A stretch of 64,000 bases of DNA from Luteibacter jiangsuensis. Its GTDB lineage: Bacteria; Pseudomonadota; Gammaproteobacteria; Xanthomonadales; Rhodanobacteraceae. Shown in pieces: positions 3,774-64,000 of this stretch; within the stretch, counting starts at the first letter, position 1, and every line of letters starts with the position of its first letter. The stretch spans positions 310,001 to 374,000 of the forward strand of contig NZ_JAUSSK010000003.1 of NCBI RefSeq assembly GCF_030812295.1, given 5' to 3'. Under the pieces are notes generated by a model. That model searched no databases, had not been told where the DNA came from, and saw nothing but the letters and a program-made list of their open reading frames with translations. The translations under genes were made by a program, and so were the position numbers.

Positions 3774-5609
3774 ATGGCAAGTCATTTTCGCTTGAAATTG
3801 CTGGTCGCTTCGCTGGCCATCGCGGCTACCTCGGTGGCCACGGCCGGTACCGAGCAGACGCTGCGTGCGCAGAATCTCGGAGCCGTCCCCGCCAATCAGT
3901 TGGCGACAAAGCTCGGCCTTTCCGCGGACAACTCGTTCGTGGCCAGGAATGCGCTGCCGACGGTGAAGGGAACCCAGACCGTACGCATGCAGCAGACGTT
4001 CAAGGGCGTGCCGGTTTATGGCCGCAGCATCGCCGTGGAGCAGGATGCCCAGGGCAATGCGCTGGTCGCCAACGGCGTCGTGGCCACGGACCTGCAGGTC
4101 GACCTCACCTCGGTGACGCCGAAGATCGACCAGGCCAGCGCGATCGCCTTGCTGACGAAGCAGGCGCGCACGCTGGGCGCGGCGGCGGTCAAGCCTGAAA
4201 ACGCCAAGGCCGACCTCTACGTGTATCCGGTGGACGGCGCTCCGGCGCGCCTCGTGTACCTGACCTCGTTCTTCGTCGGCGGCGATCATCCCACGCGCCC
4301 GACCGCGATCATCGATGCCAACACCGGGCAGGTGATCGAACAGTGGGAAGGCCTCACCAACGCCGAGGTGGACGCGACCGGGCCGGGCGGCAACCAGAAG
4401 GTCGGCCAGTACACATGGGGAGCGAACGGCTTGCCCGCGCTGCGCGTGACGCAGTCCGGAACCACCTGTACGGCGCAGAATTCCTACGTGAAGTCGTACA
4501 ACATGAAGAAGGCGACCTCCGGCAGCGGTACGTTGTGGAGCTTCACCTGCTTCAACTCCAGCGGCGATGCGGTGAACGGCGCCTACGGACCGATCAACGA
4601 TGCCCATCACTTCGGTGGCGTGGTTCATGACATGTATACCGCCTACACCGGCGCGGCACCGTTGAACCAGGTGCTGATCATGAAGGTGCACTACGGCAAC
4701 AACTACGAGAACGCGTTCTGGGACGGCAGCTCGATGACGTTCGGCGACGGCGCCAGCACGTTCTATCCGCTGGTCGCGCTCGACGTCACCTCGCACGAGA
4801 TCAGCCACGGCTACACGGAACAGCACTCGAACCTCGCCTACAGCGGCCAGTCCGGCGGCATGAACGAAGCCTATTCGGACATCGCGGGTGAAGCGGCGGA
4901 ATACTACGATCGCGGCAGCAACGACTTCCTGGTCGGTTCGGACATCGTCAAGACCAGCGCCGGCATCGGCGACGCGTTGCGCTACATGTGCAACCCGACC
5001 CAGGACGGTGGTTCGATCGACAACGCGGCCGATTACTACAGTGGCCTGGACGTCCATTACTCCTCGGGTGTGTATAACAAGGCGTTCTGCGTACTGGCCA
5101 AAACCAGCGGCTGGGATACGGTCAAGGCGTTCAAGGCCTTCGCACGCGCCAATGCCCTCTACTGGACCGCCAGCTCCACCTTCAACAGTGGCGCGTGCGG
5201 CGTGGCGAGCTCGGCGACCGACCTGGGTTATTCGGCGACCGATGTCGCCGCGGCGTTCACGGCGGTGGGCGTGACCTGCTCCACCGGTGGCGGCGGCACG
5301 CAGTTGCAGAACGGCGTGGCCAAGACCGGCCTGGCCGGAAGCTCGGGCACGGAGCTCAGCTACACGGTCGTCATCGCGGCCGGTGCGTCGAACCTTTCCA
5401 TCGTCACCAGCGGCGGCACGGGTGATGCGGATCTCTACGTGAAGTTCGGCTCCGCGCCGACGACCTCGAGCTACAACTGCCGTCCGTACCTCAACGGCAA
5501 CAACGAGACCTGCACGTTCGCGGCACCGCAGGCCGGCACCTACTACGTCAAGGTTCGTGGCTATACCACGTTCTCCGGCGTCTCCCTAAAGGCGACCTGG
5601 ACGCCGTAA
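3774..5609 (+). CDS. Secreted M4 (thermolysin-like) metallopeptidase with PPC domain
   Basis: 611 residues from the ATG at 3774, preceded by a strong GGAGGAGG ribosome site. Order of parts: signal peptide (1-24), FTP/PepSY propeptide (about 30-195), M4 catalytic domain, and a bacterial pre-peptidase C-terminal (PPC) domain (about 520-611). The zinc site is HEISH at 341-345, with the third ligand in GGMNEAYSD (E365). Several cysteines suggest disulfides in the mature enzyme. It is expected to be secreted, cleaved from its propeptide and active as an extracellular neutral protease; PPC domains are usually removed or aid secretion. It is followed by a strong terminator, so it is monocistronic. 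Confidence 0.95.
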   Translation: MASHFRLKLLVASLAIAATSVATAGTEQTLRAQNLGAVPANQLATKLGLSADNSFVARNALPTVKGTQTVRMQQTFKGVPVYGRSIAVEQDAQGNALVANGVVATDLQVDLTSVTPKIDQASAIALLTKQARTLGAAAVKPENAKADLYVYPVDGAPARLVYLTSFFVGGDHPTRPTAIIDANTGQVIEQWEGLTNAEVDATGPGGNQKVGQYTWGANGLPALRVTQSGTTCTAQNSYVKSYNMKKATSGSGTLWSFTCFNSSGDAVNGAYGPINDAHHFGGVVHDMYTAYTGAAPLNQVLIMKVHYGNNYENAFWDGSSMTFGDGASTFYPLVALDVTSHEISHGYTEQHSNLAYSGQSGGMNEAYSDIAGEAAEYYDRGSNDFLVGSDIVKTSAGIGDALRYMCNPTQDGGSIDNAADYYSGLDVHYSSGVYNKAFCVLAKTSGWDTVKAFKAFARANALYWTASSTFNSGACGVASSATDLGYSATDVAAAFTAVGVTCSTGGGGTQLQNGVAKTGLAGSSGTELSYTVVIAAGASNLSIVTSGGTGDADLYVKFGSAPTTSSYNCRPYLNGNNETCTFAAPQAGTYYVKVRGYTTFSGVSLKATWTP

Positions 5610-5635
5610 GCGACGACATCGACGTGCGTTCGACG

Positions 5636-5670
5636 AGGCCCGGGCGGTAGCGCCCGGGCCTCTTTCGTTT
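5636..5670 (+). terminator. Rho-independent terminator of the M4 protease gene
   Basis: A 10-bp GC-only stem (GGCCCGGGCG / CGCCCGGGCC) with a GTAG loop is followed by TCTTTCGTTT, 27 bases after the stop codon. Confidence 0.88.
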
Positions 5671-5785
5671 GCGGTCGTTTTTCCTACGTGTTCCCGTGGG
5701 CAGGGTCGGATAGGACCTCCATCGTCGCGGCCTTACGTTCGTTCGACCTCCGCAGCTTTGCTGCGCCATCGAAGGAACGTCCCCC

Positions 5786-7102
5786 ATGCGATTGGCTCTC
5801 CTCGCCGCTTTCATCCTGTTCGCTTTCCCTCCGCGCGTCCGTGCGGACGAGGCTCGTTACATCGTTCATTTTGTCGACGCGGAATCGGCGCGTGCCGCGC
5901 GCATGCCCCGTTCGATGACCGGCACCGCGCGGCTCGATGTGCCACGTCATGTACGTTCGCTGGCGGCGGGCGGCGAACTCTTCGAGGTACACGGCGGCGA
6001 CGTGTCCCGGCTTGCCGGTTTGCCGGGCGTCGCCGCCGTCGAGGAGGACCTCGTCCTCACCGCCACGGCCGTCGTCGACCCGCTATGGAAGCGGCAGTGG
6101 TACATGCACGATCCCAAAGTCGGCGTGGACGCGGAAGTGGCGTGGCGCTACACGCGCGGGACGGGAGCGGTGGTGGCGGTGCTCGACACAGGCATTACCC
6201 CGCATCCCGAGTTCGATGGCCAGTTGCTGCCTGGCTACGATTTCGTGAGCGACGCCGCCGCCGCGCGCGACGGTGACGGCCGCGATGCGAATCCCGCCGA
6301 CGAAGGTGACTGGAGGGACGCCGGCGACTGTGGTTCGCCGCGCGTCGCCTCGTCGTCGTGGCACGGATCGCATGTGGCCGGCCTCGTCGTGGCGCGTTCC
6401 GGCAACCGGCCAGGCATCGTGGGGCTCGCGCCCGAGGCGAAGCTGTTACCTGTGCGCGTGCTCGGTCATTGCGGTGGGCGGCTTTCGGATGTTGCCGATG
6501 CGGTCGTCTGGGCCAGCGGCGGCACGGTGCCGGGCGTGCCGCCGCTCGAACATCGTGCCGATGCGATCAACCTGAGTCTCGGCGGGCCGGGCGCCTGCGG
6601 TATCGCCATCGCACGGGCCATCGAACAGGCACGTGGGCGCGGCACGGTGGTGGTCGCCGCCGCAGGCAACGATCAGGCGAAGGCCTCGACCAACGTGCCC
6701 GCGAACTGCCCGGGCGTGGTCACGGTCGCGGGCCTGGCGCGTGACGGCTCGATGGCGTGGTACTCCAATCACGGTGAACGCGTCACGCTCTCCGCACCCG
6801 GTGGCAGCTTGCGCGAGCGTGGGGCAGACGACATCGTGTCCACGATCGATGCGGGCAAGCGCGGTCGAGAGCGCCCCATCTTCGCGTATCACGCAGGCAC
6901 CTCGATGGCGGCACCGCAGGTGGCGGCGCTCGTCGCGCTGATGCGTTCGGCCGATCCCGCCATCGGTGTCGACGACGTGACGCGGCAGCTGGTCGATAAT
7001 GCGCGGCCTTTGCCGGGAGCTTGCCCGAAGGGTTGCGGAGCGGGCCTGATGGATGCCGGTGCGACCGTCGACGCGGTGGTCGAGGATCGCGCGCGGCGTT
7101 GA
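5786..7102 (+). CDS. Secreted S8 subtilisin-like serine peptidase
   Basis: 438 residues, start ATG at 5786, signal peptide to about residue 20. A short I9-like propeptide (YIVHFVDAESARA through VEEDL, about 25-90) precedes the peptidase domain. The catalytic triad is visible: D134 in VAVLDTGI, H193 in SSWHGSHVAG, S373 in GTSMAAPQ; the oxyanion Asn is N295 in AAAGN. Cysteine pairs fit the extracellular protease group of Xanthomonadales. There is no C-terminal extension. It is adjacent to, but separated by a terminator from, the M4 protease, so the two form a protease locus rather than an operon. Confidence 0.93.
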   Translation: MRLALLAAFILFAFPPRVRADEARYIVHFVDAESARAARMPRSMTGTARLDVPRHVRSLAAGGELFEVHGGDVSRLAGLPGVAAVEEDLVLTATAVVDPLWKRQWYMHDPKVGVDAEVAWRYTRGTGAVVAVLDTGITPHPEFDGQLLPGYDFVSDAAAARDGDGRDANPADEGDWRDAGDCGSPRVASSSWHGSHVAGLVVARSGNRPGIVGLAPEAKLLPVRVLGHCGGRLSDVADAVVWASGGTVPGVPPLEHRADAINLSLGGPGACGIAIARAIEQARGRGTVVVAAAGNDQAKASTNVPANCPGVVTVAGLARDGSMAWYSNHGERVTLSAPGGSLRERGADDIVSTIDAGKRGRERPIFAYHAGTSMAAPQVAALVALMRSADPAIGVDDVTRQLVDNARPLPGACPKGCGAGLMDAGATVDAVVEDRARR

Positions 7103-56734: not shown

Positions 56735-57190
56735 TCAGGTACGGCAGGACGTCGGGAGATAGGCATCCGGCACAGTCGTACCTGCGCTGGACTTGCAGTT
56801 CCAGGTGATCGAACCACCCTGATCCGTAGCCGAAAGCACGACGACCTTGGCACCGCCGGCCGTCAGCTTGCTGTTCACTTCGTTGCCAAAGGTCGCAATG
56901 ATCTTGCCAGGAGTGGTCACACCAGCGTCGACGCTAACGACATACTTGCCCGAGATCGAAGCAGCCTGAGGCAAACCGGCAGATTCGTTCTTGCTCGGAA
57001 AGCGGCCAGTATTGTTGTAGAACTCGGCCACAGCGGTCTTCGCGCCGTCAGCCAGGTTCATGCCTTCCGACACCTGCGTGCGGATGATGTAGTTCTGGTA
57101 CTGCGGGATGGCAATGGCAGCCAGGATCGCGATGATGGCGACCACGATCATCAGTTCGATGAGCGTGAAGCCCTTCTGGACGTTCTTCAT
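56735..57190 (-). CDS. pilA: Type IV major pilin (paralogue 1)
   Basis: 151 residues. Class III leader MKNVQKG is cleaved before F of [20 protein letters not shown], with the +5 glutamate. The rest is a typical pilin: a hypervariable middle and a C-terminal disulfide loop C..C ending YLPTSCRT. The terminal Thr after the second Cys could be an O-glycosylation site. GAGGAAAC precedes the ATG, and the sigma54-like promoter at 57327-57342 lies upstream. Confidence 0.96.
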
Positions 57191-57494: not shown

Positions 57495-57941
57495 TCAGTT
57501 TGAGCGGCACGACGTGGGCAAATACTTGTCATTGAGCGTCGATCGGCAAGTCCACCCAATAGCACCGACAGTGTCCACCGGAGAGAGCGAAATTGTCTGA
57601 TGCTTTAGCTCTTCATTGGAATCGGGGCGCGCATACGCGATGAGAATGACACCTGAATCTTGAAGCGCTACCGATGAAACGTATTTACCGCTGATGGATG
57701 CGCCGTCAGGAAGTCCCGCCGATCGGTTAGAAGGAGGGAAGTGGCCTGTGTTGTGAAGATACTCCCATACCGCTGCCTTGGCCCCGGCGGCGGTCGCGAG
57801 ACCCTCGGAAGCTTGAGCGCGGATTAGATAGTCCTTGTACTGAGGCACTGCGATGGCCGCGAGGATCGCGATGATCGCCAAGACGATCATCAACTCGATA
57901 AGAGTGAAACCGGACGTCATCCGATTGCTTTTGAGGTACAT
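57495..57941 (-). CDS. Type IV major pilin (paralogue 2)
   Basis: 148 residues. Leader MYLKSNRMTSG cleaved before [23 protein letters not shown] at 57941 or 57920. The N-terminal 60 residues are close to paralogue 1, the middle differs, and the end is again a disulfide loop ending YLPTSCRSN. The terminal Ser-Asn after the Cys may be a glycosylation site. It has its own sigma54-like promoter, so it is not just a partner in an operon. Confidence 0.94.
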   Translation of the reverse strand: MYLKSNRMTSGFTLIELMIVLAIIAILAAIAVPQYKDYLIRAQASEGLATAAGAKAAVWEYLHNTGHFPPSNRSAGLPDGASISGKYVSSVALQDSGVILIAYARPDSNEELKHQTISLSPVDTVGAIGWTCRSTLNDKYLPTSCRSN

Positions 57942-58017: not shown

Positions 58018-59379
58018 TCAACTGTGATGCCCATCGCGCAAATCTATGGGATCTATAAATCGGCCCCTTCGGGGCCTGTGTTTTTTTGACCAGTTGGCCA
58101 TCGCAACGATTGCCGCGGCGATGGCAACCCACTCGATGCCACGGTAGGGAACGGCGTACCTGGCGTCGGCTTGCAATACAGTGAAGACACATGTTGCGTA
58201 GACGCCAAGGAGTATCGCGAATACTAGTGCAGGTTCTCGCCGTCCCAACGTTGTAAGAATGGCAGCGACACCTGCCAGTGCTAGCAGCATCAGAAACGGG
58301 TTTGCGAAGTAAAGGAGGTCTGTTATTGAGCGCAAGGGGCCGGTGCCGGTCAGCGGCGAGGCAAACGTCGGGTATACGTATATATCGCCTTGGCCAATTC
58401 CGATTGACCATCCCCAGAGCTCCACGGGTTTGGACGCATACCAAGCGAGGTAACGCATTGGTGCACGTTCCATTCGTTCCAGTATTGCTGCCACACCGGC
58501 AAGACGATCGCCGTGCAATCGAGTTATGTCATTGTCGATCAGGCTCAGTGTCGCTTTGGCAGCTGGGTCTCCAGAAATGGCAGCGAACCACGCGCTGTGA
58601 TATTCGGGCCAAGAGCCTTGGACAAAGTTCATGGCAACCCTGCTGGATGAAGTCAGGTTGGGCGGCAGCTGGGAGCTTCGAAGTATCCATGCCGCGCAGG
58701 GAAGAGTGGCCGCAAGGAGTAGGCAAAGCCAGCGCGCGCGGTTTGCCCTGTCACGCCAAGCCATGGCGCCGGCGAAAAGTGGCGCTGCAGGAACTATGAC
58801 GGCATTGGTCAGCCCCGCAGCCGCGAAAGCGATACCGGAAGCGACTATATTCGTTCGGGAACGCCGTTCTAGTCCGAGTTGCAAGCACCAAAGTCCCACC
58901 GCTATAAAAAATCCAACTAGAGTTTCGCTTAGAAGATAGCCTGCGAGCGTTATCGAGTGTGGCCAAAACGTCAAGCCAAGGCCCACTGTCACAGCTGCCA
59001 CAAAGCCGAGCCAACGTCGCGCTAGAAACGTATATAGCGCAACGGTCAGCGCCGATAAAATGGCCTGGATGTCAAGAGTCGTCGTATAGAACGCCTGAGT
59101 ATCGCCGCGCAAGGCAATGATGCCCGCGAGGAAGATTGGGTATCCGGGGTCTCGAAAACTATCAGGCGTAGGAGCTTCCGATTCTGGAGGAGCGATAGAG
59201 AACACCCGGTGGTGAACGACGTTCCACGCGTAACTGAAATACTGAGTTGCGTCTCCTCTCAACGGATGGTCTACGACAGCCGTATGGACGTAATGAAGCC
59301 TGATCGCTAGAGCGAGTAAGGCTATAGCTGCCAGAACGACTACTTGCTGCCATGATTTCGACAACTGGCTTCGGTTCAT
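58018..59379 (-). CDS. GT-C/GT39-like polytopic glycosyltransferase (third GT-C gene)
   Basis: 453 residues from the ATG at 59379 (59409 also possible), about ten transmembrane helices. The first external loop carries RGDATQYFSYAWN, with the catalytic-type Asp43 after the first helix, as in the PMT/ArnT clan. It shares no clear motifs with the two repeat-bearing GT-C proteins. Located directly upstream of the second pilin, so probably transcribed before it. A polyprenyl-phosphate sugar is the expected donor. Confidence 0.82.
   Translation of the reverse strand: MNRSQLSKSWQQVVVLAAIALLALAIRLHYVHTAVVDHPLRGDATQYFSYAWNVVHHRVFSIAPPESEAPTPDSFRDPGYPIFLAGIIALRGDTQAFYTTTLDIQAILSALTVALYTFLARRWLGFVAAVTVGLGLTFWPHSITLAGYLLSETLVGFFIAVGLWCLQLGLERRSRTNIVASGIAFAAAGLTNAVIVPAAPLFAGAMAWRDRANRARWLCLLLAATLPCAAWILRSSQLPPNLTSSSRVAMNFVQGSWPEYHSAWFAAISGDPAAKATLSLIDNDITRLHGDRLAGVAAILERMERAPMRYLAWYASKPVELWGWSIGIGQGDIYVYPTFASPLTGTGPLRSITDLLYFANPFLMLLALAGVAAILTTLGRREPALVFAILLGVYATCVFTVLQADARYAVPYRGIEWVAIAAAIVAMANWSKKHRPRRGRFIDPIDLRDGHHS
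58066..58090 (+). terminator. Terminator-like hairpin inside a coding end, plus-strand orientation
   Basis: GGCCCC-TTC-GGGGCC followed by TGTGTTTTTTTG reads as a rho-independent terminator for plus-strand transcription, yet it lies within the last codons of the minus-strand GT-C gene (encoding RPRRGRF). No plus-strand gene ends here. Confidence 0.45.
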
Positions 59380-59409
59380 CGTGTCCTCGGACTCAAATCG
59401 TGGAAACAC

Positions 59410-59701: not shown

Positions 59702-61792
59702 ATGAAACCCCTCCTAGCCGCGCTAGCCCTGGCCCTAGCGTCCGGCCCCGTCCTGTCCGCAGACGCCGACAGCACCACCCCCCATCCATTCTCCGTCCGC
59801 GACCTGGTCATGATGGACCGCGTCGGGGATCCCCAGCTGTCCCCCGATGGCCGCTACGCGCTCTTCTCCGTCCGCGCCACGGACTACGCGGCAAACAAGG
59901 GCATCACCTCCCTTTATATCGTCGACCTCAACAAGCCACCGCAACCAGTCATGGTCGTGGAGAAGGGCTCATCCCCCCGCTGGGCGTCGGACGGCAAGTC
60001 GATCTATTACACGGCCCCGAAGGACGGCACGGCCCAGGTCTGGCACCGATCGTTCGACGCCGACAATTCCGGCAAAGGCCTGGCATTGACGGTCCGCGCC
60101 GGTGAAGCGGTCACGGATGCCCCTCTGGACGTCAACGCCTTCAAGCTGTCGCCGGATGGCGCCAAGTTGCTCCTCAGCTACGACGTATTCACCGACTGCC
60201 CCGACCTGGCCTGCACCAAGGAGCGTCTGGACGGCCGCGAGAAGGACAAGTCCACTGGCACCGTCTACGACAAGCTCTTCGTCCGCCATTGGGACACCTG
60301 GGCGGACGGTCGCCGCTCCCAGCTCTACATCGCCGACGCCAACGCGCCTTCGCAGCCGGTACTGCTGAGCCGGGACATCGACGGCGACGTGCCCAGCAAG
60401 CCTTTCGGTGGGGATGACGAGTTTTCCTTCTCGCCGGACGGCAAGACCGTCTACTTCGATGCCCGCATCGCCGGCAAGACCGAACCCTGGTCGACCAACT
60501 TCGACATCTACAGCGTCCCGGCCGATGGCTCGGCCGCACCGGTGAACCTCACCGCGGAAAACCAGGCATGGGACGCCAATCCCTTGGTGTCGCCCGACGG
60601 CAAGACCTTGTTCTACACGGCGATGAAAGAGCCGGGCTCCGAGGCCGACCGCTTCGGGATCATGGCCCTGGACCTCGCCTCGGGCAGCAAGCGGGAAGTG
60701 GCGCCTTCGTGGGATAGCTCCGCCGGCGCCCTCCAGGTTTCGGCCGATGGCAAGACCCTCTACACCACCACCGACGACAAGGGTCAGCATCCGCTGTTCG
60801 CCATCGACGTGGCGACCGGGAAGGCCACTATTCTCGTCACCGACGGCTCCGTGGGCGCGTTCTCGACGGGCAGCTCGAAGATCCTGCTATCCCGCGACGA
60901 CCTCAAGCGCCCGGCGGATCTCTACACGGCCGACCTGAAGGGCAAGGGCCTCAAGCAGGTCACCCACTTCAACGCCAAGCGCATCAAGGGCGCGCAGACC
61001 GGCGACTTCGAGTTCTTCACCTTCAAGGGCTGGAACAACGAAACCGTGCAGGGCTACGTGGTGAAGCCGGTCGGCTACAAGCGTGGCAAGACCTACCCGG
61101 TGGCCTTCATCATCCACGGTGGCCCGCAGGGCGCGATGACCAACAGCTGGAGCTACCGCTGGAACGCCCAGACCTACGCGGGCCAGGGCTTCGCGGTGGT
61201 GACCGTCAACTTCCATGGCTCGACCGGCTACGGCCAGGCCTTCACCGGATCCATCTCGGGCGACTGGGGCGGCAAGCCGCTCGAGGACCTGAAGGCAGGC
61301 TGGAGTGCGGCACTCTCGAAGTACAACTTCCTCGATGGCAACCGTGCCTGCGCCCTCGGCGCCAGCTACGGCGGCTACATGGTCTATTGGATGGCGGGTA
61401 ACTGGAACCAGCCGTGGAAGTGCTTCGTCGACCACGACGGTGTCTTCGACGCGCGCGCCATGTACTACGAAACCGAAGAACTCTGGTTCGAGGAAAAGGA
61501 AAACGGCGGCACGCAGTTCGACCATCCGGAGAACTACGAGCGCTTCAACCCGGTCAACCACGTGAAGGACTGGCGCGTGCCGATGCTCGTCATCCACAGC
61601 GGCAAGGACTTCCGCATCCCCGACACCCAGGGCCTGGGCGCATTCACGGCGCTGCAGCGCCGCGGCATTCCCAGCCAGCTATTGCACTTCCCCGACGAGA
61701 ATCACTGGGTGCTCAAGCCGCAGAACAGCGTGCAGTGGCATGAGACGGTGAATGCTTGGTTGAAGGAGTGGACGGCTCCAGGGGCGAAGTAA
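59702..61792 (+). CDS. Secreted S9 (prolyl oligopeptidase/DPP-like) peptidase
   Basis: 696 residues with a signal peptide (to about 20). A seven-bladed beta-propeller with repeated LSPDG/FSPDGK-type turns occupies residues 30-430. The alpha/beta-hydrolase domain carries S555 (GASYGGYM), D636 (HSGKDFRIP) and H668 (DENHWVLKP). It acts on short peptides in the periplasm or outside. Several N-terminal codons are unusually C-rich. It has high GC, unlike the island before it. Confidence 0.94.
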   Translation: MKPLLAALALALASGPVLSADADSTTPHPFSVRDLVMMDRVGDPQLSPDGRYALFSVRATDYAANKGITSLYIVDLNKPPQPVMVVEKGSSPRWASDGKSIYYTAPKDGTAQVWHRSFDADNSGKGLALTVRAGEAVTDAPLDVNAFKLSPDGAKLLLSYDVFTDCPDLACTKERLDGREKDKSTGTVYDKLFVRHWDTWADGRRSQLYIADANAPSQPVLLSRDIDGDVPSKPFGGDDEFSFSPDGKTVYFDARIAGKTEPWSTNFDIYSVPADGSAAPVNLTAENQAWDANPLVSPDGKTLFYTAMKEPGSEADRFGIMALDLASGSKREVAPSWDSSAGALQVSADGKTLYTTTDDKGQHPLFAIDVATGKATILVTDGSVGAFSTGSSKILLSRDDLKRPADLYTADLKGKGLKQVTHFNAKRIKGAQTGDFEFFTFKGWNNETVQGYVVKPVGYKRGKTYPVAFIIHGGPQGAMTNSWSYRWNAQTYAGQGFAVVTVNFHGSTGYGQAFTGSISGDWGGKPLEDLKAGWSAALSKYNFLDGNRACALGASYGGYMVYWMAGNWNQPWKCFVDHDGVFDARAMYYETEELWFEEKENGGTQFDHPENYERFNPVNHVKDWRVPMLVIHSGKDFRIPDTQGLGAFTALQRRGIPSQLLHFPDENHWVLKPQNSVQWHETVNAWLKEWTAPGAK

Positions 61793-61827: not shown

Positions 61828-62703
61828 TCATGGTCTGTCACGCACCTCGCGCTCGGCAGCTTCCGCCCATCGATAAGCCACCGCAGCGCCACTGAAATAA
61901 ACAACCTCGGCCGTGCTTGCCGCGATAGCCCGCTCGAGAAGCAACATATCCGCCTCATGCGGATGGCTCACGCGAACATCATGGAAGAAGATCACTCGCT
62001 GGCATTGCCCCGAAAGTACGAGATCGGCAATCTGCGCATCGCCACCCGTTGGACCGCTTTCGTAGCACGTGGCCCACGCCTCATTTCCTGACCAGCCCTG
62101 TTGTCGGACGAGATCATTCAATCGGCGGCCCGTGGTGCCCGTGCAAATTCGGCGAGAAAAGCCGGATAGCAGCGCGAAATGCCTCACGACGAATTCCACC
62201 AGGCAAGGTTTCCATGCGTCATGTGCGATAAGCGCAATGGCTTGGCGTGCAAACTGCTGTCGTAAGCCGTTCGGGGGCCTTGGCGTCAACTCGCAAAGAA
62301 TCCGCTCTGCCTCGATCCACTCCACGGCGGAAGCTGCCGTGATGAGATAAGGCTTGGCATGGACGAGACATAAACGCTTCAGCGCCCGTACTTCGGGGGC
62401 AACGATCGATTCATCGCCGGGTGCGGCCAGATGGATGACGCCGTCCAAGGCATCACTTCCATCGGCATCGAGGATGGCTGCGGCCATTCGTATGATGTCG
62501 TGAAAGCGGTCGCCTGGATAAGACATCAAAGCGGGGCAGTCAGCGAAACCAGAAATGCGTCCGACGGCTTCGTACGTATCGGCAGGAACGCGCAAGGTGA
62601 GTCTCAGCTTGCGTATATCGTCTCCACATCGATGCAGTAGTCGATGGAGCGGGGAGTCCTCACTATCCAGGTATTCGCGACTTGCGATAAGCCCTAGCTG
62701 CAT
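61828..62703 (-). CDS. Tandem methylglyoxal-synthase-like domain protein
   Basis: 291 residues. The C-terminal half (about 150-275) aligns by eye to E. coli MgsA: IALIAHDAWK (H161, K165, equivalent to H19/K23), CTGTTG (T188, T190, T191, phosphate loop), GPTGGDAQIADLV (D222, equivalent to D71), IFFHD, and HPHEADMLLLERA (H249, D252, equivalent to H98/D101). All key residues are kept. The N-terminal half (1-140) repeats the fold pattern (LGLIASRE, YPGDRFHDI, GVIHLAAPGDESI, VRALKRL) but lacks the catalytic His and Asp. MgsA converts DHAP to methylglyoxal; whether this protein does is open. It is divergent from a cqsA-like gene. Confidence 0.8.
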   Translation of the reverse strand: MQLGLIASREYLDSEDSPLHRLLHRCGDDIRKLRLTLRVPADTYEAVGRISGFADCPALMSYPGDRFHDIIRMAAAILDADGSDALDGVIHLAAPGDESIVAPEVRALKRLCLVHAKPYLITAASAVEWIEAERILCELTPRPPNGLRQQFARQAIALIAHDAWKPCLVEFVVRHFALLSGFSRRICTGTTGRRLNDLVRQQGWSGNEAWATCYESGPTGGDAQIADLVLSGQCQRVIFFHDVRVSHPHEADMLLLERAIAASTAEVVYFSGAAVAYRWAEAAEREVRDRP

Positions 62704-62915
62704 GGCTTGTTATCCCGTCCTTGGGCGAAGTCATGCTAAGGGACAGATGTTGCTTAGGGAATATCCATTCCGTCGTAGGCGCGTCTCAAGAACAACTATT
62801 GCGGTCGAAGCCCATAAGTTCCAAATACATAATAGCTCCAAGCATACCGTCGTCAAATGAGGCCGTTCGGAAATGATGTGAAACGCGTCGCTTGCAGAAA
62901 CGAGTGCTTGTCCCG

Positions 62916-62943
62916 TTGACAATCACGCGGCAATAACGATACG
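62916..62943 (+). promoter_or_regulatory. Candidate sigma70 promoter of the cqsA-like gene
   Basis: A perfect TTGACA (62916-62921) is followed after 16 bases by GATACG, a poor -10 match. The start would be near 62950. The rest of the 290-base divergent spacer (62704-62993) shows no hairpin or operator that I can defend. Confidence 0.35.
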
Positions 62944-62993
62944 GAAAGTAGAAAGATTCTAGAGCGGTTTAAGGTTTCACGGAGGGGTTTCTC

Positions 62994-64000
62994 ATGGAAG
63001 ATCGATCCCGCGTCGCGATCGGTGGTCTCCCGGATTTTATGGAGCAGCGGTTGGCGAAATTTAGAAATTTTGTCATGACCGAATGGGGAGGCAGACATGT
63101 CTTTCGGAGTCGACCCTTCACGCCCGGTGCCCTTGTACTTTGCACCAATGATTATTTGAGCATTTCGAACAGTAGGCGCATCGTCGACGCGCAGTGTGCA
63201 TCGTTGAGGGAGCATGGTGCGGGTTTGATGATGTCCTCCCTCTTCAATCAGGATCCGAATGATGCGCTACGACGTGTCGAGCAAACATTAGCGGATGCGA
63301 TAGGTACTGCGGAGGGGGTGCTTACGCAGTCTGGATACTGCGCCAATATAGGGCTAATGCAGGCGATTGCATGCCCAGGTCGTCCGGTCTACATCGATGT
63401 CATTGCGCATGCGTCTCTGCATGCAGGCATACGGTTCGCGGGAGCGACAGCGGTACTCTTTCATCACAATGATATCGGCGACCTGCGCGCCAAGATATCG
63501 CAAAACGGGGCAGGGGTCGTCGTTATCGATTCGATCTACAGCACGAATGGGAGTCTTGCGCCCATACGCGATATCGTAGATTTTGCACGTGCGCATGACT
63601 GTCTAATGGTAGTCGATGAGTCGCATTCACTCGGTACGCATGGTCTGCACGGTCGGGGATTGGTGGCCGACCTGGGGTTGGCAGGAAAGGTTGACTTCGT
63701 AACGGTAAGCCTGGCTAAGGCGTACTGCTCGCGAGCCGGCTTTATCGCGTGCCCAAAAGGATTTCGCGACTATTTCGGATTCGAATCACTTCCGGCCATT
63801 TTCAGTTCTTCGCTTCTACCTCATGACATCGCGGGCATCCGGGCGGCGCACGAGGTAGTGGTCAGCGAGGAATGGCGCAGAGATCGACTTCATAAGTTGA
63901 CAAGACACATCCGGTGCGAGCTGGCTAGCATGGACTACCCTGTCGATACCGATGGTGAGCAGATTATCGCCCTCGAAGTAGGTAGCGATTTGAGAACGGC
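62994..64000 (+). CDS. cqsA: CqsA-type alpha-hydroxyketone autoinducer synthase (5' part)
   Basis: 335 codons from the ATG at 62994 (GGAGGGG six bases upstream) run off the window with no stop. PLP-dependent alpha-oxoamine synthase fold. Shared landmarks with Vibrio CqsA, by memory: TQSGYCANIGLMQAI, YIDVIAHASLHAGIRFA, VVVIDSIYSTNGSLAPI, VVDESHSLGTHG, the PLP lysine K242 in TVSLAKAYCSRAG, and LPAIFSSSLLPHD. These features separate CqsA/LqsA from KBL and BioF. The Vibrio enzyme condenses an acyl-CoA with SAM to make the CAI-1 precursor. Only 1 kb is seen, so partner sensor genes may lie beyond the edge. Confidence 0.9.
   Translation, partial: MEDRSRVAIGGLPDFMEQRLAKFRNFVMTEWGGRHVFRSRPFTPGALVLCTNDYLSISNSRRIVDAQCASLREHGAGLMMSSLFNQDPNDALRRVEQTLADAIGTAEGVLTQSGYCANIGLMQAIACPGRPVYIDVIAHASLHAGIRFAGATAVLFHHNDIGDLRAKISQNGAGVVVIDSIYSTNGSLAPIRDIVDFARAHDCLMVVDESHSLGTHGLHGRGLVADLGLAGKVDFVTVSLAKAYCSRAGFIACPKGFRDYFGFESLPAIFSSSLLPHDIAGIRAAHEVVVSEEWRRDRLHKLTRHIRCELASMDYPVDTDGEQIIALEVGSDLRT

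Follow-up and report, generated by a model that had tools for sequence, protein, structure and literature searches.

A diverged orphan second CqsA-type synthase gene at a variable site of Luteibacter jiangsuensis, whose genome holds a full alpha-hydroxyketone signalling cluster elsewhere

Introduction

Functional studies of alpha-hydroxyketone (AHK) signalling are described for Vibrio, Legionella, and Janthinobacterium in the sources consulted here (PMC3285556, PMC5289986, PMC3566124). The synthase CqsA is described as joining S-adenosylmethionine with octanoyl- or decanoyl-CoA to give an enaminoketone, the precursor of a hydroxyketone that is sensed by a CqsS-type kinase (PMC3285556). A 2017 review names AHK systems in Legionellaceae, Vibrionaceae, Burkholderiaceae, Chlorobiaceae, and Oxalobacteraceae, and describes the Legionella receptors LqsS and LqsT as partly antagonistic (PMC5289986). 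The strings 'Xanthomon', 'Rhodanobacter', 'Dyella', and 'Frateuria' are absent from the text of the 2013 JqsA paper (PMC3566124). Among the matches listed from titles and abstract starts of open-licence literature, there was no second CqsA copy and no AHK system in Xanthomonadales, Luteibacter, Dyella, Rhodanobacter, or Rhodanobacteraceae; one of these sources (PMC6843130) names both CqsA and Xanthomonadales, in unrelated passages of the text seen.

We analysed a stretch of 64,000 nucleotides from L. jiangsuensis (the window; positions 310001-374000 of contig C3 in the source genome, G000). A preliminary description had assigned the gene at its right edge to CqsA rather than to KBL, BioF, or SPT, and had proposed a second, possibly new signalling channel in this lineage. 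Here we compare this gene, designated cqsA2, with described AHK systems and with a main AHK cluster found elsewhere in the same genome.

Results and discussion

The gene runs over the edge of the window, and its extent is as follows.

62994..64000 of the window, plus strand: cqsA2, an orphan second AHK-type autoinducer synthase gene, with 335 of 404 codons inside the window
Full extent of cqsA2: end at the equivalent of window position 64208 (L009:4994-6208; G000:C3:372994-374208)

The frame opens with an ATG at 62994 and is still open at the window edge. Read further into the contig it is complete, closing after 404 codons, so the objection that the frame might be truncated just beyond the window fails. 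The four landmark motifs quoted in the preliminary description are all present in the translation, and the lysine of SLAKAY is residue 242.

KBL, BioF, ALA synthase, and serine palmitoyl synthase share a Pfam fold family (PF00155) with CqsA2, and in principle one of these could have been misread as CqsA. We consider this highly improbable, since NCBIfam cut-offs, structural ranking, and phylogeny all speak against it. CqsA2 scores 470.7 bits with the NCBIfam equivalog for AHK-type synthases (NF005526, cut-off 428) and 221.8 bits with the bioF model (cut-off 426.45), while its scores with the KBL, SPT, and ALA-synthase NCBIfam models all lie far under their cut-offs. In the PDB it is closest to entries for V. 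cholerae CqsA (E ~1e-85), with SPT as the next family (E 2e-42). In a tree of 53 rows, CqsA2 falls within a 45-row group of AHK synthases that is split from KBL, BioF, HemA, and other paralogues with 100/100 support. The tree holds 53 of the 68 extracted proteins, 13 having been dropped as repeat extractions of the same genes and two (L077 and L079) as near relatives of kept rows; SPT, LqsA and JqsA by name, and both copies of genome G100 are absent from it. The earlier choice of CqsA is thus upheld, against KBL and BioF by the tree as well, and against SPT by the profile scores and PDB ranking. Within the group, CqsA2 lies inside a clade formed by 27 AHK synthases of its taxonomic family (support 100/98), on an end branch of 1.46 changes per column versus 0.02-0.18 in 16 CqsA1 rows of the genus, a length that drew a warning from the tree tool that placement may be distorted and that leaves the exact position unsure. 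Taken together, CqsA2 is very probably the maker of a fatty ketone signal of the Vibrio and Legionella quorum-sensing kind, as far as sequence comparison can tell.

Residues K236, H133, D202, and H205 (V. cholerae numbering), which we take to be the PLP lysine, the stacking His, and the site Asp and His common to KBL and BioF, are all kept in CqsA2. Among 74 columns that are near-invariant in 44 other AHK synthases, 69 are likewise kept, at an identity of 53% to CqsA1 (47% of positions changed), which argues that CqsA2 is under constraint and not decaying. When each of the same 44 synthases was left out in turn, Tistrella departed at 9 of 78 such columns, G686 at 8 of 80, G629 at 5 of 78, and every other at 3 or fewer. 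It is conceivable that cqsA2 was recently acquired and is inactive or being lost, with no function in its host. The remaining 5 of the 74 columns are changed, and a second copy above the cut-off occurs in only 2 of 23 genus genomes (G000 and G021), at different places, both of which would fit such a history; the complete 404-codon frame and the retained columns at this level of identity oppose it, and we regard it as unlikely.

Position 137, beside the PLP-stacking His, is His in CqsA2 and Trp in 43 of the 44 other AHK synthases, and position 138 is Ala in CqsA2 and Glu (42), Asp (1), or Gln (1) in the others, an acid at 138 also being present in the KBL, BioF, and ALA-synthase rows. The Trp137-Glu138 pair, which as a family feature is our own description rather than a published defining feature, is thus His-Ala in CqsA2, and it is also altered in G686 (Arg-Asp) and Tistrella (Trp-Gln). 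The activity of CqsA2 could be lost or altered through W137H/E138A. We read CqsA2 as a working PLP-dependent enzyme whose substrate handling is possibly altered.

An altered acyl pocket with a shifted chain length was considered as a further candidate. Seven of the nine acyl-pocket residues of CqsA, as listed in PMC3285556, are the same in CqsA2 as in V. cholerae (H30, F79, F257, I263, F264, P348, and A349), and the changes are V32 to F and C346 to T. Compared with CqsA1, three of these nine sites differ, which is no commoner than the 47% of positions changed over the whole protein, and a shifted chain length is therefore unsupported.

The source genome has another AHK synthase, CqsA1, on contig C1.

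G000:C1:1218494-1222413 (L023:6494-10458): cluster of kinase, LqsR-like regulator, and CqsA1 genes
G000:C1:1221214-1222401: CqsA1 (536 bits), with both the kinase and the regulator upstream of it

The kinase (461 aa) has a HATPase match above the Pfam cut-off and a HisKA match (23 bits) below it, and among the best 25 of 73 curated kinase models it passes none; from residue 40 onward it aligns with Vibrio and Cupriavidus kinases encoded near cqsA. The regulator, a receiver protein of 345 aa, matches PDB 6sy9, presumably LqsR, over residues 9-334 (E 1.9e-50). The C1 locus therefore holds the kinase, LqsR-type regulator, and synthase that together make a complete Cqs/Lqs/Jqs cluster. Each of the 23 genus genomes has one match to the kinase at E 1e-60, and in all 23 it adjoins CqsA1 at a distance of 1.2-1.35 kb. 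In one of these genomes, the CqsA1 match (G017:C1:27022-28215) contains one in-frame TGA. Within the source genome, only one of 28 matches to the C1 kinase is full-length, the other 27 starting at residue 194 or later, and the regulator is matched once; at the search sensitivity used, the genome thus has one receptor and one regulator of the Cqs/Lqs type. AHK signalling genes do exist in the lineage, as the preliminary description had supposed, but the channel is carried by the C1 locus and not by the gene in the window. The genome has a full AHK system without cqsA2, which is an extra, diverged copy.

The surroundings of cqsA2 differ from those of CqsA1. The preliminary description had proposed a look past position 64000 for a kinase and a regulator; the contig continues instead with corA and a gene for a type VI secretion sheath, and the 20 kb read contain neither such a kinase nor such a regulator. 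By eye, the ORFs after the sheath gene resemble T6SS genes. No CqsS/LqsS-type kinase, LqsR-like regulator, or further AHK synthase was found in 33 kb around cqsA2 (L009, L010) or in the window, and no complete cluster stands at cqsA2, the sole full-length kinase being beside CqsA1. The site is made up as follows.

59702..61792, plus strand: S9 peptidase gene (alternative start 59636), the conserved left flank of a variable cargo site
61793 of the window to L009:6216 (G000:C3): variable cargo site, from the S9 peptidase gene to corA, near the T6SS sheath gene
61828..62703, minus strand: methylglyoxal-synthase-like gene, 291 aa, with the domain at residues 152-261 (C-terminal half)
62704..62993: intergenic region of the divergent pair, 290 bases

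Of 22 genus stretches (21 genomes), 14 showed both flanks, the S9 peptidase gene and corA; the weak and incomplete peptidase match of L131 was not taken as one. The gap between them is about 0.1 kb in three of these stretches and 1.8-8.7 kb in the other 11, one of which is that of G000, where it contains cqsA2 and the methylglyoxal-synthase-like gene. To judge from their opening residues, the ORFs of the remaining gaps differ, and no ortholog of cqsA2 was found at the same site in the genus. Several genus relatives have in this gap a gene whose start resembles dihydroxyacetone kinase by eye.

The GC3 of cqsA2 is 0.572 versus 0.81 for CqsA1, and the 39 window ORFs of at least 250 aa, taken with no GC3 filter, have a mean of 0.73 (sd 0.113). 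We rejected the idea that cqsA2 is the lowest-GC3 ORF of the window: none of 49 ORFs is lower in a set whose filter favours high GC3, but three of the 39 are lower without it, the nearby ORF 58018-59409 among them. Given its place in a variable cargo site and its lowish GC3, cqsA2 may plausibly have been gained horizontally, a reading tempered by those three lower ORFs.

Other signals in the region were few. Both promoter-like sites in the 2.6 kb scanned (two found versus 1.8 expected by chance) fall in 62704..62993 on the minus strand, none in that span being directed at cqsA2, and terminator-like sites near cqsA2 occur only in chance number. No phage record resembles the 3.7 kb around cqsA2 or the C1 regulator, there are no repeats of at least 16 bases in the 4.2 kb around cqsA2, and no Rfam family is present in the window. 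Further to the left, two pilin-like ORFs (56735-57190 and 57495-57941), whose N-termini presumably fit the type IV prepilin motif, stand beside large membrane proteins.

The gene divergent from cqsA2 scores 87 bits with NF003559 (cut-off 84) and 75.6 bits with TIGR00160, under its cut-off of 146.9, and it has no Pfam family. By eye, its N-terminal half resembles a degenerate repeat of its C-terminal half. Relatives occur in 4 of the 23 genus genomes. The two genes form a divergent pair in one inserted stretch and are both fairly low in GC3 (0.572 and 0.59), as would be expected if they made up one functional module. We consider a module very unlikely, because seven of the eight other full-length loci of the neighbour, each covered with 12-18 kb (G282, G048, G037, and G260 at L036-L039; G016 at L110; G021 at L112; G010 at L113), have no AHK synthase nearby, and the eighth is in a genome, G057, with no AHK synthase match at E 1e-60. 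The methylglyoxal-synthase-like gene is probably separate cargo.

Second copies of AHK synthases are rare. Of 398 genomes drawn from the phylum, 16 encode an AHK synthase (E 1e-95), and G000 is the sole one with two copies; of 339 drawn from the class, seven encode one, with two copies in G000 and, in G100, a second copy that scores 371 bits, under the cut-off of 428. A search with CqsA2 at E 1e-90 matched 23 of 147 genomes of the family and 28 of 398 of the order, again with two copies only in G000, with a best foreign match of 56% identity, and with G021 not among the matches. These draws overlap, and in the large ones only a few top candidates of each genome are scored. A single CqsA2 query of a named genome collection gave one remote relative (L040, 29%). 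Apart from cqsA2, two second copies could thus be compared: that of G021, with 46% identity to CqsA2, and that of G100, with 32%.

L139:7957-9213 (G100:C13): second AHK-like synthase of G100, a genome of the same class as the source

No kinase or regulator was found near either copy, in 20 kb for G021 and 17 kb for G100, and both genomes also have, at another locus, a synthase adjoining a kinase. The AU test does not reject a common clade of the G000 and G021 second copies (p 0.32), although these are at different places.

It is possible that CqsA2 has left signalling altogether, the same fold and chemistry now yielding another acyl-amino ketone such as a metabolite, an antibiotic, or a product used in competition. 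Such an exit would account for the missing receptor and the lost Trp-Glu pair. The orphan position, the long branch, and W137H/E138A are in keeping with it, as are the G100 orphan, which also has a non-acid residue (Phe) at 138 and Phe at 346, and a cargo site close to the T6SS sheath gene. However, CqsA2 is still above the AHK equivalog cut-off, its acyl pocket largely matches that of V. cholerae CqsA, the third orphan, that of G021, retains Trp and an acid (Asp at 138), and there is no evident biosynthetic neighbour except the methylglyoxal-synthase-like gene. On balance we find this departure from signalling rather doubtful.

Receptors of this kind also occur on plasmids. When the C1 kinase and the C1 regulator were used to search plasmids, pairs turned up in those of Rhodanobacter denitrificans, R. 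thiooxydans, and Dyella sp. BiH032.

NZ_CP088926.1 (L141), 4656-6969: kinase and LqsR-like regulator pair
NZ_CP134868.1 (L142), 4578-6963: kinase and LqsR-like regulator pair
NZ_CP088924.1, 7505-9818: kinase and LqsR-like regulator pair

In the two regions read around such pairs (11 and 13 kb), there was no match to an AHK synthase. LqsR-like proteins are also found on plasmids of Legionella, Polaromonas, Burkholderia, and Massilia, giving 14 records in all, of which six are typed conjugative. When CqsA2 itself was compared with plasmids, the first seven of the best 25 of 76 matches by coverage and identity were AHK-like (38-44% identity; Cupriavidus, Tistrella, and Vibrio), and the rest of these 25 had at most 32%. 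The matches listed from open-licence literature, as titles and abstract starts, contained nothing on AHK plasmids or on plasmid-borne or orphan LqsS/LqsR. Plasmid receptors with no synthase nearby, as in the two regions read, suggest that mobile elements may listen to the AHK channel of their host or of neighbours.

We favour, with a probability of roughly 0.6, the reading that cqsA2 encodes a working AHK-type synthase, a diverged paralogue or xenologue of CqsA1 that is kept under selection as cargo of a variable site and whose product would act on the single kinase. As a member of its family, CqsA2 would be expected to join a medium-chain acyl-CoA to S-adenosylmethionine or a related amino-acid donor, and the resulting enaminoketone would then be converted to an alpha-hydroxyketone. 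With a single CqsS/LqsS-type kinase in the genome, this AHK or enaminoketone variant most likely feeds that one receptor, where it might be a second ligand, whether agonist or antagonist, or might add to the dose of the same ligand; alternatively, it might be sensed by neighbours.

A more specific circuit of two synthases and one receptor can be put forward tentatively. In this circuit, the CqsA2 ketone would differ chemically from the CqsA1 signal and would compete with it or tune it at the single kinase, and cqsA2 would be one of several separately gained genes for extra signals. The plasmids that carry a kinase and a regulator and lack a synthase would be their counterpart, so that mobile senders and mobile listeners would share one channel. 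A conserved AHK cluster in the genus, joined in one member by a diverged second synthase with still one receptor, offers a natural test of how specificity is split between signal and receptor.

Comparison with known systems

CqsA2 resembles the CAI-1 synthases CqsA of V. cholerae and V. harveyi in its fold family, in Lys236, His133, Asp202, and His205, and in 7 of 9 pocket residues, at 40% identity, although Trp137 and Glu138 of the Vibrio enzyme are replaced. Vibrio has cqsA near cqsS, as observed in the V. campbellii locus, whereas cqsA2 has no kinase nearby. The nearest tree group to CqsA2 is CqsA1 of its own genus (53-56% identity), which evolves slowly and adjoins the kinase, while CqsA2 is an orphan on a long branch. 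The Jqs system of Janthinobacterium, described as a kinase, an LqsR-type regulator, and a synthase (PMC3566124), has the same make-up as the C1 cluster. Legionella pneumophila, with one synthase and the two receptors LqsS and LqsT as described in the 2017 review (PMC5289986), is mirrored by the source genome, which has two synthases and one receptor.
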